Translations under genes and position numbers: made by a program
NCBI RefSeq assembly: GCF_917563915.1
Contig: NZ_CAKJTI010000002.1
Coordinates: 124,001-188,000, forward strand
Length of the DNA stretch: 64,000 nucleotides
Reading direction: 5' to 3'
Origin: Bacillus rhizoplanae
GTDB lineage: Bacteria; Bacillota; Bacilli; Bacillales; Bacillaceae_G
Part shown: positions 3,945 through 58,546 of the stretch, piece after piece
How the letters are laid out: the number at the start of each line of letters is the position of its first letter
How positions within the stretch are numbered: the stretch's first letter is position 1
The notes under the pieces: model-generated
Database searches by the model: none
Seen by the model: only the letters and a program-made list of their open reading frames with translations
What the model was told of the DNA's origin: nothing

Positions 3945-4005
3945 ATTTGATATGAAACACTGCACGGCACTTGAAAATATAACAATAAAGTTGTTTAACG
4001 TATTT

Positions 4006-4091
4006 CCGAAAGAAGTCCCCATCTTCAAGCGCGTGACGGGCAAAAGTCCAGCGGTAAGGTGGGGATGAATTTCGGTTAGGTATAGCCTAAC
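4006..4091. repeat. Right-end hairpins of the IscB element
   Basis: Long hairpin 4006-4075 (outer arms CCGAAA/TTTCGG, inner arms TCCCCAT and GTGGGGATGA) and a second palindrome at 4075-4091 (GTTAGG TATAG CCTAAC). Such subterminal structures are what TnpA binds in IS200/IS605 elements. Confidence 0.6.
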
Positions 4092-5334
4092 TGATTTGTA
4101 AGAACTGCCAATTGTTCGTATGGTGTATACGTTCCATATCTGACATCTTCACTTGCTTATAGGATTTAGAAGGGTTTTGTATATATTGTCCATGGATATC
4201 TTGTACGTATACCATTTTTCCTGTAAATCCTGTCACAAATCCTACTTGTCCAAATACCTTTACTTTATCACCTAGATAGATTCCATCTATATGTGGTGTA
4301 TTTTTCCTGTTCCGTTTTGCACTTGTATTCTTTGTTTTCCTTCCTTTTCTTGCGGTTGCTTCATGCAGGGAGCGTTTTTTCTTTCTAAATTGCTTAATTC
4401 GAAACTCACCGCTTTGATCATATTCTTGTATTGGTGTTGGATGGGCAATCGCAATCGCGTCATTTACATGAGTTTTTGATAAACCTAATTCTTTTCGCTT
4501 CGGTGTGGTGTAACTGCCGTACGTAATGTCACAATCTAAACGATTCATAATTTGTAAACGCAATACATTCATAAAAGCAGTCTCTTTATATTGTTTCGGT
4601 TTTTTGAAACTGTGTTTGATTTTCCCTTGATGAAATTTTTGATGGCATTCATCGTGCACTGTTACAAGATTATCTGCCATATCTGAACCGCCACTGCATC
4701 GTTCAATGATATGATGTGTATGTAAAATACCACCTTTCTTCTTACAAATTTGGCAGGTGTAATTGTCTCTAGCGAATACATAATATCTCGTATTCCAAAA
4801 GCCAAAGGTATCCCCTTGTTGGTATTCTATTCCTTGTATATCGGGATTTTTTAGCTTTTGTGCATCAAATTTTTCTACTTCGACAATCACTTTTGGAGAT
4901 GGTAATAACGAGCGAAATATTTCAATCCAATGAATTTGGTTATCCACTCTGCTTTGAACCGATGGCGGCAACCATCCTTCTTTCTTTTTCCGATTGAGAA
5001 AACGTGCTTTTCGATATCTTGTTTTTCGTTGTCTTCTACCTCTGCGTAATGTAGCTCTCAGTGTAAGATTTTCTTTGACGTCCTGACGTAACTCAATGGT
5101 TCCTTTTGTTAGCACTTTGTCTTCAGTGGTAATCGCAATGCCGATATGCTTTGCTCCGCTGTCAACACCGATTGTGACGGGTTGCACCGCTTCACCTGTA
5201 GCATATTGTAATTGAATTGTAAACGGATTGTATCCAATAATCTTTGCTTTTCCTTGTTTGAGAAGAATCCGTGCCTTGCGATGACTGCAAGGCATGAGCG
5301 GCTCTCCCCTTAAATTTTTGACAAACACACACAT
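4087..5334 (-). CDS. iscB: IscB RNA-guided nuclease (OMEGA system)
   Basis: A complete 415-residue IscB. Domains in order: PLMP domain (GEPLMPCSHRKARILLKQGKA, residues ~10-30); RuvC-I with the catalytic Asp in VTIGVDSGAKHIGIA (~55-68); an arginine-rich bridge helix with the RRXRR signature (RRGRRQRKTRYRKARF, ~97-112); RuvC-II Glu in VIVEVEKFD; an HNH domain with CQIC, the HHII motif and a second Cys/His pair (CHQKFH); RuvC-III Asp in HVNDAIAIAH; and a C-terminal basic RNA/TAM-binding region. All expected catalytic residues are present. ATG 5334 follows AGGAGGGAC by ~9 nt. IscB is the family ancestral to Cas9 and cuts DNA guided by an omega-RNA. It is not TnpB, because it has both PLMP and HNH. 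Confidence 0.93.
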   Translation of the reverse strand: MCVFVKNLRGEPLMPCSHRKARILLKQGKAKIIGYNPFTIQLQYATGEAVQPVTIGVDSGAKHIGIAITTEDKVLTKGTIELRQDVKENLTLRATLRRGRRQRKTRYRKARFLNRKKKEGWLPPSVQSRVDNQIHWIEIFRSLLPSPKVIVEVEKFDAQKLKNPDIQGIEYQQGDTFGFWNTRYYVFARDNYTCQICKKKGGILHTHHIIERCSGGSDMADNLVTVHDECHQKFHQGKIKHSFKKPKQYKETAFMNVLRLQIMNRLDCDITYGSYTTPKRKELGLSKTHVNDAIAIAHPTPIQEYDQSGEFRIKQFRKKKRSLHEATARKGRKTKNTSAKRNRKNTPHIDGIYLGDKVKVFGQVGFVTGFTGKMVYVQDIHGQYIQNPSKSYKQVKMSDMERIHHTNNWQFLQIS

Positions 5335-5337
5335 GTT

Positions 5338-5581
5338 TTGTCCCTCCTAAGAGTTTGTTTCCCTTCGCCAATGTTTGTAGGTGTTGGCAACTTCTCGTGC
5401 AAGAAGGCGTGTGGTTGACCGTTCCTTCCCAATCAGAACTGTTACAGAGCCACCATAGAGCCAAGAACTAGGGAATCATTCTTGGGCATGCAACCTACGA
5501 ACGGAGTCCACGAAAGACCGAGGCTAGACAACCAGGGCTTTTTTCAAGCCCCCACTTCAAAACGTGTTAGTGTTTAAGTGG
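5338..5581 (-). ncRNA. Putative omega-RNA of IscB
   Basis: The ~240 nt directly upstream of iscB contain no convincing ORF but a chain of hairpins, read on the minus strand from the left end: CCACTT/AAGTGG (5576-5581 with 5552-5557), GGGCTT/AAGCCC (5535-5551), a CGTAGGTTG-containing region, CCAAGAA/TTCTTGG (5461-5485), CTTCT/AGAAG (5391-5406) and GCCAA/TTGGC (5367-5388), ending at the iscB ribosome binding site. Known IscB omega-RNAs occupy this place, begin with a guide of roughly 16 nt copied from the sequence outside the left end, and carry similar elements. The guide would then come from the 3' end of the DUF3995 gene. Boundaries are inferred. Confidence 0.72.
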
Positions 5582-6029
5582 TGGGTAGTTGACTAGAAAA
5601 AAAGTAAAACATACCTCCAATCATCCAGTAAGGCTCCCAGAGTACTAGTCGCCAGAAGGTGGCATAGCTATCTAATTCAAGGTTTAAAACACCAATTGCA
5701 CTCAAGGATATTGTTATGAAATTGAACAAACCGTATAAAAAAAGTAAAAGTCCACAAATTTTTATTATGAGATAGAGCGACTTTTGAATCCGAGAATTTT
5801 CCCATTTAATTAACAACATTATGAGCAATACTACTCCGAGTAATTTTATGAATCCAGTTATCCAAACGATTGCTATAAACGATGGTGTTGGATGTAATGC
5901 CATTTCATAAATTGCACCTCCTAGGGATCTAACACCAAACATACCTCCCGCTGCCCAATAGAAACTCAAGACAGAAAATAGAAGTGTCCATATCACTCCT
6001 AAATACAAAAAATACTTATTGGTTTCCAT
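5574..6029 (-). CDS. DUF3995-type small membrane protein
   Basis: A 151-residue integral membrane protein with about four hydrophobic segments and the pattern W..GG.FGVRSLGG..., resembling DUF3995 proteins of Bacillus. ATG 6029 has GAGGAGC upstream; the long open frame before it runs through a bcr1 repeat and is not coding. The last codons (SSQLPTT) lie in the left end of the IscB element, so the native C-terminus may have been replaced on insertion. Function unknown. Confidence 0.65.
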   Translation of the reverse strand: METNKYFLYLGVIWTLLFSVLSFYWAAGGMFGVRSLGGAIYEMALHPTPSFIAIVWITGFIKLLGVVLLIMLLIKWENSRIQKSLYLIIKICGLLLFLYGLFNFITISLSAIGVLNLELDSYATFWRLVLWEPYWMIGGMFYFFSSQLPTT

Positions 6030-6063: not shown

Positions 6064-6217
6064 TTTAATCCTGCATTAACGGGCAGTAAGACCCCCACCT
6101 CAAGATTTCGAGATAATCGAAGAAGATAGGTGGTGGATAACTGCCCGTAAAAGCCCGATTGGTTCAACTAACCATCAATGGGGGATGAAAAAAACACTGA
6201 TGGAAGTTTCACTTTAT
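6064..6217 (+). repeat. bcr1 repeat (first bases degenerate)
   Basis: Same architecture as the copy at 2132, but the start reads TTTAATCCTGCATTAACGG; it ends GTTTCACTTTAT. It lies between the DUF3995 gene and the hydrolase gene. Confidence 0.85.
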
Positions 6218-11546: not shown

Positions 11547-11645
11547 AGAGTATAGTGAAATTGTGTTCAAATTGTTCAGCGTTACATATAACTTATTGTA
11601 ATATGTAAAATGCAACAGAGGATGCAAGAAGGTTAATACAATGGT

Positions 11646-14699: not shown

Positions 14700-16263
<1,564 letters not shown>

Positions 16264-25914: not shown

Positions 25915-27510
25915 ATGAGACGTGTGAGCCGTGAAGAGTTATTGGCACCGCCGACGTATAACTTAGTAGAAGAGATGGAGCGTTATGCAAAGCAACCAAA
26001 TAAGCTTGCGCTTATTTGGCAAGATGATCAAGGTAATAAAAAGAAAGTGACATATGGGGAATTGTTACAAGGGGCAAATAAAATTGGAAACGCTTTTATA
26101 AAAAGGGGTCTGAAAAAAGGGGACAAGCTTCTAATTATGATGCCTCGTCTTATTGAAACATATATGACGTATATTGCCGCAATTAAAGCGGGATTTGTTG
26201 TCATTCCAAGTTCAGAAATGCTGCGTAAAAAAGATATTGAATACCGCATTGCACATGGAGAAGTAAAAGCGATTGTGAGTTATGAGCCGTACGTTAGACA
26301 ATTCGACGGAATCGAAGCAATGAATTCGCTTTATAAATTTGTATTAAGTGAAAGACCGTTAGACGGTTGGAGCAATATAAGGGAAGCGCTTGAAACAGAG
26401 AGTGATGTACTAGAAATGGCAGAGACAAACTGTGATGATATGGTCTTTTTATCATATACATCTGGAACGACAGGCAATCCAAAAGGTGTTGTACATACAC
26501 ATGCTTGGGCGTATGCTCATCTTCGTACGAGCGCTGCAAATTGGTTAGCAATTGAAGAAAATGATGTTGTATGGGCAACAGCAAGTCCAGGATGGCAAAA
26601 GTGGGTTTGGAGTCCTTTTCTTGCAACACTTGGTTCAGGCGCAACGGGATTTGTGTATCACGGGAAATTTGACCCGGCAACATATTTACAATTATTAAGT
26701 GATAATAAAGTAAATGTATTGTGTTGCACGCCGACTGAATATCGTTTAATGGCAAAAATAGAAAACTTGCAGCAATATGACTTGTCTTCCCTGCATAGTG
26801 CTGTTTCAGCAGGAGAGCCATTGAACAGAGAGGTTATTAATACATTCCGAAATTATTTTCATGTAACGGTTCGCGATGGTTATGGCCAAACAGAAAATAC
26901 ATTACTTGTTGGTGTATTAAAAGGAATGGAAACAAAGCCTGGTTCGATGGGGAAACCAACGCCAGGTAATCAAGTTGATATTGTTGATGAGGATGGTAAA
27001 CCAGTTCTTCCGGGAGAAGTAGGAGATATTGCGGTACACATCAAAACACCAGCATTATTTAAGGAGTACTATAAAGACCCGGAACGTACAACTATGCAGT
27101 TTCGCGGTGATTATTATATTACAGGTGATCAGGCGAAAAAGGATGAAGATGGCTACTTCTGGTTTGAAGGGCGAGGCGATGATATTATTATTAGTTCTGG
27201 TTACACAATTGGACCGTTTGAAGTGGAAGATGCACTTGTGAAGCATCCATATGTAAGAGAATGTGCTGTTGTGGCAAGTCCAGATGAAATAAGAGGGAAT
27301 GTCGTAAAAGCCTTTATTGTTTTACAAGAGGGGATAGAGGAACAAGATGAAATGTTAATTCCGCTTCTGCAAGAGCATGTGAAAGAATTAACAGCACCTT
27401 ACAAATACCCGCGGAAGATTGAATTTGTGAAAGAACTTCCAAAAACAATTTCCGGTAAAATTCGCCGCATTGAACTGCGAAAGCGTGAAATGGAAATAGC
27501 TGCGAAGTAA
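25915..27510 (+). CDS. Acyl-CoA synthetase (YtcI-like AMP-forming ligase)
   Basis: A 531-residue ANL-superfamily enzyme: P-loop LSYTSGTTGNPKGVVHTH (~175-192), DGYGQTENT, GRGDDIIISSGYTIGP and C-terminal ISGKIRRIELR with the catalytic Lys. It activates a carboxylic acid, probably short/medium chain, through an acyl-AMP. Lies after the ssp gene as ytcI does in B. subtilis. ATG 25915 follows AAAGGGGGAAGC. The stop codon touches a bcr1 repeat. Confidence 0.9.
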   Translation: MRRVSREELLAPPTYNLVEEMERYAKQPNKLALIWQDDQGNKKKVTYGELLQGANKIGNAFIKRGLKKGDKLLIMMPRLIETYMTYIAAIKAGFVVIPSSEMLRKKDIEYRIAHGEVKAIVSYEPYVRQFDGIEAMNSLYKFVLSERPLDGWSNIREALETESDVLEMAETNCDDMVFLSYTSGTTGNPKGVVHTHAWAYAHLRTSAANWLAIEENDVVWATASPGWQKWVWSPFLATLGSGATGFVYHGKFDPATYLQLLSDNKVNVLCCTPTEYRLMAKIENLQQYDLSSLHSAVSAGEPLNREVINTFRNYFHVTVRDGYGQTENTLLVGVLKGMETKPGSMGKPTPGNQVDIVDEDGKPVLPGEVGDIAVHIKTPALFKEYYKDPERTTMQFRGDYYITGDQAKKDEDGYFWFEGRGDDIIISSGYTIGPFEVEDALVKHPYVRECAVVASPDEIRGNVVKAFIVLQEGIEEQDEMLIPLLQEHVKELTAPYKYPRKIEFVKELPKTISGKIRRIELRKREMEIAAK

Positions 27511-27657
27511 AGTGAAACTTCCATCAGTGGGGGGCTTTATCCCCCACTGATGGAAAGCCCGCCCAATCGGGCTTTTACGGGCAGTTATCCCTCACCTATC
27601 TTCCTCGTTTTTCTCCGAATCTTAAGGTGAGGTCTTACTGCCCGTTAACGGGATAAA
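27508..27657 (-). repeat. bcr1 repeat (full length)
   Basis: TAAAGTGAAACTTCCATCAG ... CCCGTTAACGGGATAAA, 150 bp. Its first bases are the stop codon of the acyl-CoA ligase gene. Confidence 0.9.
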
Positions 27658-29325: not shown

Positions 29326-29353
29326 AGGCAGCATATGCCGCCTCTATTTTTTA
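29322..29353 (+). terminator. ytcJ terminator
   Basis: AGAGGCAGCATATGCCGCCTCT hairpin then T's; a bcr1 element starts inside the T-run. Confidence 0.85.
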
Positions 29354-29507
29354 TCCCGCATTAACGGGCAGTAAGATCCTCTACCTCAAGATTCAGAGAG
29401 AAGCAAAGAAGATAGGTGGGGGATAACTGCCCGTAAAAGCCCGATTGGTTCAACTAGCCGTCAGTGGAGGATGAAGAAAACCTCCACTGACGGAAGTTTC
29501 ACTTTAT
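29350..29507 (+). repeat. bcr1 repeat (full length)
   Basis: TTTATCCCGCATTAACGGGC ... GTTTCACTTTAT. One end is in the ytcJ terminator T-run and the other end forms the nadK stop codon. Confidence 0.92.
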
Positions 29508-35208: not shown

Positions 35209-35224
35209 AGCATTCCTCCCATTT

Positions 35225-35381
35225 TTTATCCCGCATTAACGGGCAGTAAGACCCCCACCTCAACATTCTGAGAAAAGCGAAGAAGATAGGTGGGGGATAA
35301 CTGCCTGTAAAAGCCCGATTGGTTCAACTAACCATCAGTGGGGAATGAAGAAAGCCCCCACTGATAGAAGTTTCACTTTAT
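35225..35381 (+). repeat. bcr1 repeat (full length)
   Basis: TTTATCCCGCATTAACGGGC ... GTTTCACTTTAT, 157 bp. Confidence 0.92.
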
Positions 35382-38083: not shown

Positions 38084-38126
38084 GGATACGTACAAAGGGG
38101 AACGGAAAGAAAAAAGATAGAACTGT

Positions 38127-38272
38127 TTTATCCCGCTATTTTTGGGCAGTAAGACCCCCACCTCGAGATTCAGAGAAAATCTAAGAAGATAGTTGAGGGA
38201 TAACTGCTGGCATGCGCCTGATTGGTTCAACTAACCATCAGTGGGGGACCACTGATGGAAGTTGAACTTTAT
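38127..38272 (+). repeat. bcr1 repeat
   Basis: TTTATCCCGCTATTTTTGGGC ... GAAGTTGAACTTTAT, 146 bp, somewhat shortened in the distal hairpin. Confidence 0.88.
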
Positions 38273-47135: not shown

Positions 47136-47167
47136 TGTATAGAAATTTTTGTGGAATTTGTATACAT

Positions 47168-47323
47168 TTTATCCCGCATTAACGGACAGTAAGACCCCCA
47201 TCTCAAGATGCAAAGAAAAGCGAAGAAGATAGGTGGGGCTAACTGTCCGTAAAAGCCCGATTGGTTCAACTAACCATCAGTGGGGGATGAAGAAAACCCC
47301 CACTGATGGAAGTTTCACTTTAT
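47168..47323 (+). repeat. bcr1 repeat (full length)
   Basis: TTTATCCCGCATTAACGGAC ... GTTTCACTTTAT, 156 bp. Confidence 0.92.
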
Positions 47324-58394: not shown

Positions 58395-58441
58395 AACGGT
58401 CATCCTTTCATGGATATTCTATGAAAGGATGACCGCTTTTT
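58395..58441 (+). terminator. Terminator, GH3 operon
   Basis: CGGTCATCCTTTCAT pairs with ATGAAAGGATGACCG, then T's; a bcr1 element starts in the T-run. Confidence 0.88.
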
Positions 58442-58546
58442 TATCCCGCATTAACGGGCAGTAAGACCCCCACTTCAGGATTCAGAGAAAAGCGAAGAAG
58501 ATAGGTGGGGGATGAAACCCCTCCACTGATGGAAGTTTCACTTTAT
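58440..58546 (+). repeat. bcr1 repeat, internally deleted (107 bp)
   Basis: TTTATCCCGCATTAACGGGC ... GTTTCACTTTAT; the AACTGCCCGTAAAAGCCCG middle is missing. Confidence 0.9.

Follow-up and report, generated by a model that had tools for sequence, protein, structure and literature searches.

The window analyzed here, a 64,000-nucleotide stretch of Bacillus rhizoplanae DNA, carries an iscB gene preceded by an omega-RNA, a guide segment and a membrane-protein gene on the same strand (Table 1). The iscB frame starts with ATG, is preceded by AGGAGGG and contains no internal stop codon. Profile searches place the encoded protein inside the IscB family, with 360 bits against NCBIfam NF040563 (guided_IscB; cut-off 175), and together with the unbroken 415-aa frame this bears out the original prediction of a complete IscB. 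Two Pfam domains also score above their cut-offs, RRXRR at residues 3-174 (212 bits) and HNH at residues 194-236 (33.8 bits), and the best relatives of the protein in the PDB are IscB chains (E 1.5e-38). The Cas9d profile reached 30 bits, below its cut-off of 375, and a crude scan of the window, which looked for exact 20-mers at the spacing of CRISPR repeats, turned up no CRISPR array.

Table 1. Positions of the IscB element, its insertion site and a dispersed repeat within the window.
Feature	Position	Strand	Description
TTAAA, predicted TAM / insertion target	3994..3998	(-)	adjoins right end
Element right end (iscB sense)	3999..4086	(-)	subterminal palindrome ...CTTCTTTCGGAAATAC(G)
iscB	4087..5334	(-)	415 aa; intact RuvC-I/II/III, bridge helix, HNH
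omega-RNA scaffold (HEARO, RF02033)	5353..5593	(-)	GTCAACTACCC; Rfam; 5′ end is the transposon end
Guide segment (putative)	5594..5609	(-)	16 nt, adjoins scaffold position 1; last codons of DUF3995 gene
DUF3995 membrane-protein gene	5595..6029	(-)	Pfam PF13160, 52 bits; element in last codons, same direction
~155-bp repeat, copies	2132-2288, 6064-6217, 27508-27657 (-), 29349-29507, 35224-35381, 38123-38272, 47167-47323, 58435-58546		
~155-bp repeat, pieces	near 11640, 13272, 19972, 42444, 50464		

The catalytic residues are likewise all present, as had been claimed, at D58, E152, H207/H208, H289 and D292. In the alignments with PDB relatives, these positions lie opposite the OgeuIscB motifs that hold its catalytic residues, given as D61, E193, H247, H340 and D343 in PMC9640706. 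A 30-row alignment shows no variation at H207, H208 and D292 and almost none at D58, E152 and H289, and the catalytic residues are common to the window protein and the OMEGA IscB systems OgeuIscB and KraIscB-1. The protein had also been described as compact. This holds for its size, which is below the 496 aa of OgeuIscB in the PDB, but not as a distinction, as KraIscB-1 measures 432 aa (PMC11061315).

Departures from this catalytic set occur among the relatives. An open frame in Metabacillus fastidiosus (L015, 607-1866) has a changed RuvC site, with D58 to H, E152 to Q and H289 to Y. Its HNH histidines are kept, as is a HEARO RNA (93 bits); the frame could represent a natural nickase, a binding-only form or decay. 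An open IscB frame in Ectobacillus funiculus (L011, 1843-3162) carries alanine in place of the first RuvC aspartate.

The upstream RNA that the original prediction had supposed was found as a full-length match to the Rfam HEARO model (positions 1-211 of 211; 93.6 bits, gathering score 83). It lies directly upstream of iscB, separated from the start codon by 18 bases. In a 14-sequence omega-RNA alignment, 53 consensus pairs are predicted, 26 of which show a pair-keeping two-sided change in at least one sequence. The fold of the single window sequence, by contrast, is no better than those of shuffles (z -0.15), which counts against our main reading. Of 80 related loci fetched, 33 were scanned for HEARO and 29 of these contain it. 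The directly upstream omega-RNA, the 5′ guide and the TAM 3′ of the target are features in common with OgeuIscB and KraIscB-1. Profile, RNA-family and comparative evidence all support the earlier suggestion that the window IscB is likely RNA-guided, and the element belongs to the known IscB/OMEGA kind.

Both iscB and the omega-RNA lie inside an element of ~1.6 kb, at about 3999-5593, which holds no transposase gene. When the 29 HEARO loci are lined up at model position 1, 25 start with GTCAA, and the sequence before GTCAA differs from locus to locus, as expected for a guide taken from the flank. Judging by its position and by a match at an empty site (below), the putative guide of the window element is flank outside the transposon end; its length of 16 nt was set by analogy with OgeuIscB. 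The right end folds as a hairpin and has 4000 or 3999 as its last base.

To the right of the element, a short motif recurs across the family. We tabulated right ends from the window and 21 of the 29 related loci, with rows anchored by eye and leaving aside L003, L004, L015, L028, L030, L031, L032 and L040, in which we saw no clear right end. TT(A/G)A(A/C) follows 21 of these 22 right ends, 10 of which come from two Agrilactobacillus-type genomes and two of which (L021 and L027) have a flank in common. By column, the motif reads T (21/22), T (22/22), A or G (22/22), A (22/22) and A (19/22) or C (3/22), and positions past it carry at most 0.48 bits each. On this basis, TTRAA is the predicted TAM, which differs from the NNRR stated for OgeuIscB in PMC9640706, and the predicted target of the window IscB is TTTTACTTTTTTTCTA followed by TTAAA. 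A miniature element at another locus (L225, 267-643) has both ends and ~180 bases of omega-RNA-like sequence, with no room for iscB.

The insertion interrupts the DUF3995 gene near its end, such that the frame reads SQLPTT after FYFFS; closer homologues go on as FYFFS-(V/I)-(K/N/R). Because of this shared ending, (A/G)TTAA is found at the insertion spot in 6 of 16 homologous DUF3995 places, in a comparison of 17 rows of which two are of one gene, the weak match L125 having been dropped as not reaching the gene end. In one relative (G010), the DUF3995 gene is uninterrupted and matches the guide at 16 of 16 positions, followed by TTAAC; this empty site was compared on its left side and over a few bases beyond, the right flank of G010 being different from that of the window. 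The right-flank gene of the window occurs in one of 19 genomes of the family, that of Ectobacillus funiculus (79%), and at two places in a Niallia genome; no single genome supplied the two flanks of the window site together.

Sites of related elements gave a further set of comparisons. The site occupied by L022 in a Lactobacillus MAG (G408) is empty in a sister genome, that of A. composti (L250 in G409), where 15 of 16 guide positions match and TTGAG follows. Counting against the homing interpretation, this empty site is 6 bases longer than the filled one, and a second place similar to the L022 site (L251) matches at 14 of 16 positions and continues with TCGAA. The Sporosarcina element L008 could be aligned through its junction with L227 and L228, each matching the guide at 13 of 16 positions; here too, several points count against: the guide match is followed by GTAAA and TAATA rather than TTRAA, and four of the six Sporosarcina regions fetched gave no alignment through the L008 junction. 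A search for an empty site of L009 in the other three of the four genomes of its genus returned no match. We therefore hold the two parts of the prediction apart: a homing guide is well supported by these comparisons, the exact motif less so.

These sites also bear on whether the element has been domesticated by its host, for example for regulation or defence, its guide then being aimed elsewhere than at the empty site. Such a role would fit the presence of a single copy of each element end in the window and a position at a gene end that alters only the last residues of the DUF3995 protein. However, the guide is made of flank and matches the empty orthologous site, and the intact nuclease residues argue that the protein is not a dead regulator. 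Moreover, the sole other place in the window that matches the guide with a single mismatch, 5734-5749, is followed by CGGTT and not by TTRAA. We consider domestication very improbable. The most likely role of the window IscB is homing or retention, in which it would cut empty sites and spare the occupied one.

The ends of the element may point to a source of mobility. When L008 and L046 were used as queries together with their flanks, elements of ~1.8 kb that have these ends as well came to light in genomes from two genera, those of Sporosarcina sp. ACRSM and Niallia endozanthoxylica. Four of these (L218, L219, L221 and L222) each contain a TnpA-sized and a TnpB-sized gene; among the proteins tested with Pfam, Y1_Tnp was found for L218 and L221 (153 and 147 bits) and OrfB_IS605 for L218. 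The right end of the window element is 79-82% alike to those of the four elements over 97-101 nt, with subterminal palindromes common to both, and GTTAAA comes next to the right end in all four as it does in the window. At the left end they differ, with GTGAAC in the four elements and GTCAAC in ours. Also unlike them, the window element has no transposase: no relative of the L218 TnpA or TnpB was detected in the window at E 1e-3, and none like the L218 TnpA in loci L001-L047 at E 1e-8, a search in which a distant TnpA would be missed. With palindromes in common with Y1-transposase elements and no TnpA of its own, we call the element IS200/IS605-type without its own transposase.

The shared insertion motif takes on a second meaning when read on the other strand, as the TTTAA found on the TnpB strand of L218-type elements is the complement of the TTAAA predicted for the window. 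For SisTnpB, PMC11043419 describes a TAM of TTTAA and a guide after UUCAC; the same arrangement, TTTAA with a guide that follows TTCAC, would result from the ends of L218, L219, L221, L222 and L226. The insertion sites of IscB and TnpB elements thereby appear to be of one kind, which the two different nucleases may read from opposite strands. The common ends also suggest how an element without a transposase can persist.

Taken together, we read the locus as a complete IscB-bearing IS200/IS605-type transposon without its own transposase, subject to guide-directed homing or retention and mobilized by TnpA in trans, and assign this reading a probability of roughly 0.8. In the proposed sequence of events, read-through from the DUF3995 gene would produce one RNA containing the guide, the scaffold and the iscB message. 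IscB would bind this RNA and cut DNA where a guide match is followed by TTRAA, namely the empty insertion site, whether left after excision or carried by a sister copy or an incoming one. The element would then be restored or copied through repair from an element-bearing copy. The occupied site would be spared because GTCAA, the transposon end, follows the guide match there in place of TTRAA. The element itself would be moved in trans by a TnpA of its TnpA/TnpB relatives. In general terms this principle is already established for OMEGA systems, and a 2023 study reportedly treated TnpA, TnpB and IscB in Geobacillus. The window system is directly testable, as its compact IscB is intact and comes with a defined omega-RNA, a guide, a predicted TAM and a natural target.

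No promoter-like site was seen on the minus strand from the element up to 6250, which counts against our main reading. A possible orientation bias was considered separately: the nearest upstream ORF runs in the iscB direction in 21 of 28 loci (30 rows, two dropped for short flank). IS605 transposition has a replication-strand preference. We gave the bias no weight, since at least 10 of the copies come from two Agrilactobacillus-type genomes and this strand preference would give the same pattern.

Relatives of the window protein are thinly distributed. A sample of 397 genomes of the order contained them in 11 (E 1e-20), and they were also found in three of 19 genomes of the Ectobacillus funiculus family (E 0.001), and in 76 of 72,556 plasmid and 16 of 50,697 phage records, with all plasmid and phage matches below 60% identity. 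This sparseness would suit a relic, that is, an element whose frame is still open while it no longer moves or cuts and drifts towards loss. Broken copies point the same way, with matches in L043, L045 and L046 whose lengths are not divisible by three and which are split in tblastn, as does an Ectobacillus genome (G001) that holds one open 456-codon copy alongside several partial matches, some at contig ends. The absence of a TnpA relative from the window is also in keeping with such a state. Set against this are the open frame, the catalytic residues, the full omega-RNA, the AGGAGGG before the ATG and the presence of both ends, and we regard a relic as unlikely.

The relationships of the protein and of its RNA do not coincide. 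The nearest full-length proteins, at 64% identity, come from three MAG loci (L001-L003), with which the window protein groups (100/100); the bins holding them are labelled Deltaproteobacteria and Woesearchaeota, which may be binning errors. Copies from Bacillota (L005-L009) are 58-59% identical to the window protein, and the broken Bacillota copy L046 reaches 66% in its best segment; these Bacillota copies have the same left end as the window element. The omega-RNAs of the window and of Bacillus methanolicus L007 share 88% identity, although the two IscB proteins are only 58% identical. In trees of 16 rows, the omega-RNA accordingly joins the window with L007 (94/99) and the protein joins it with L003 (100/99). 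For the same 16 rows, the AU test gave p 0.0003 against window+L007 on the protein and p 0.026 against window+L003 on the omega-RNA, with the groups named after the trees had been seen.

One explanation for this conflict is that the transposon ends and omega-RNA form a cassette exchanged between nucleases, an idea that we regard as doubtful. L003 is a long branch. In L007 (1941-5269), where HEARO lies 1.8 kb from iscB, the two are separated by a transposase-like gene, which we take to be IS110-like, so L007 may be the composite itself. If the pair in the window were the swapped one, IscBs could adopt foreign omega-RNAs; and if the cassette idea were true, TnpA/TnpB elements with the same ends would represent the same exchange taken further.

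The surroundings of the element do not support the B. cereus-group host that had been proposed. Among 19 genomes of the Ectobacillus funiculus family, six match argG-argH at 72-75% identity and the other 13 at 66-70%, hence none exceeds 75% and none is close. A chromosomal location, which had also been proposed, would fit the housekeeping genes around iscB. The window is in addition dense in a ~155-bp repeat that contains two hairpins and in most cases starts with TTTATCCCGC and ends with CACTTTAT. Dozens of matching pieces occur in the Niallia genome and three places match on a Pseudalkalibacillus plasmid, and the repeat looks like an abundant miniature mobile element. We at first took it for bcr1 of the B. 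cereus group, which it resembles. A TTTAT motif fits a passage of PMC6542083. We dropped this identification, as the plasmid search yielded two records, neither from the B. cereus group. Elsewhere in the window, an ordinary T-box leader lies at 14715-14941 (Rfam, 145 bits), and the gene after it presumably encodes a tyrosyl-tRNA synthetase.
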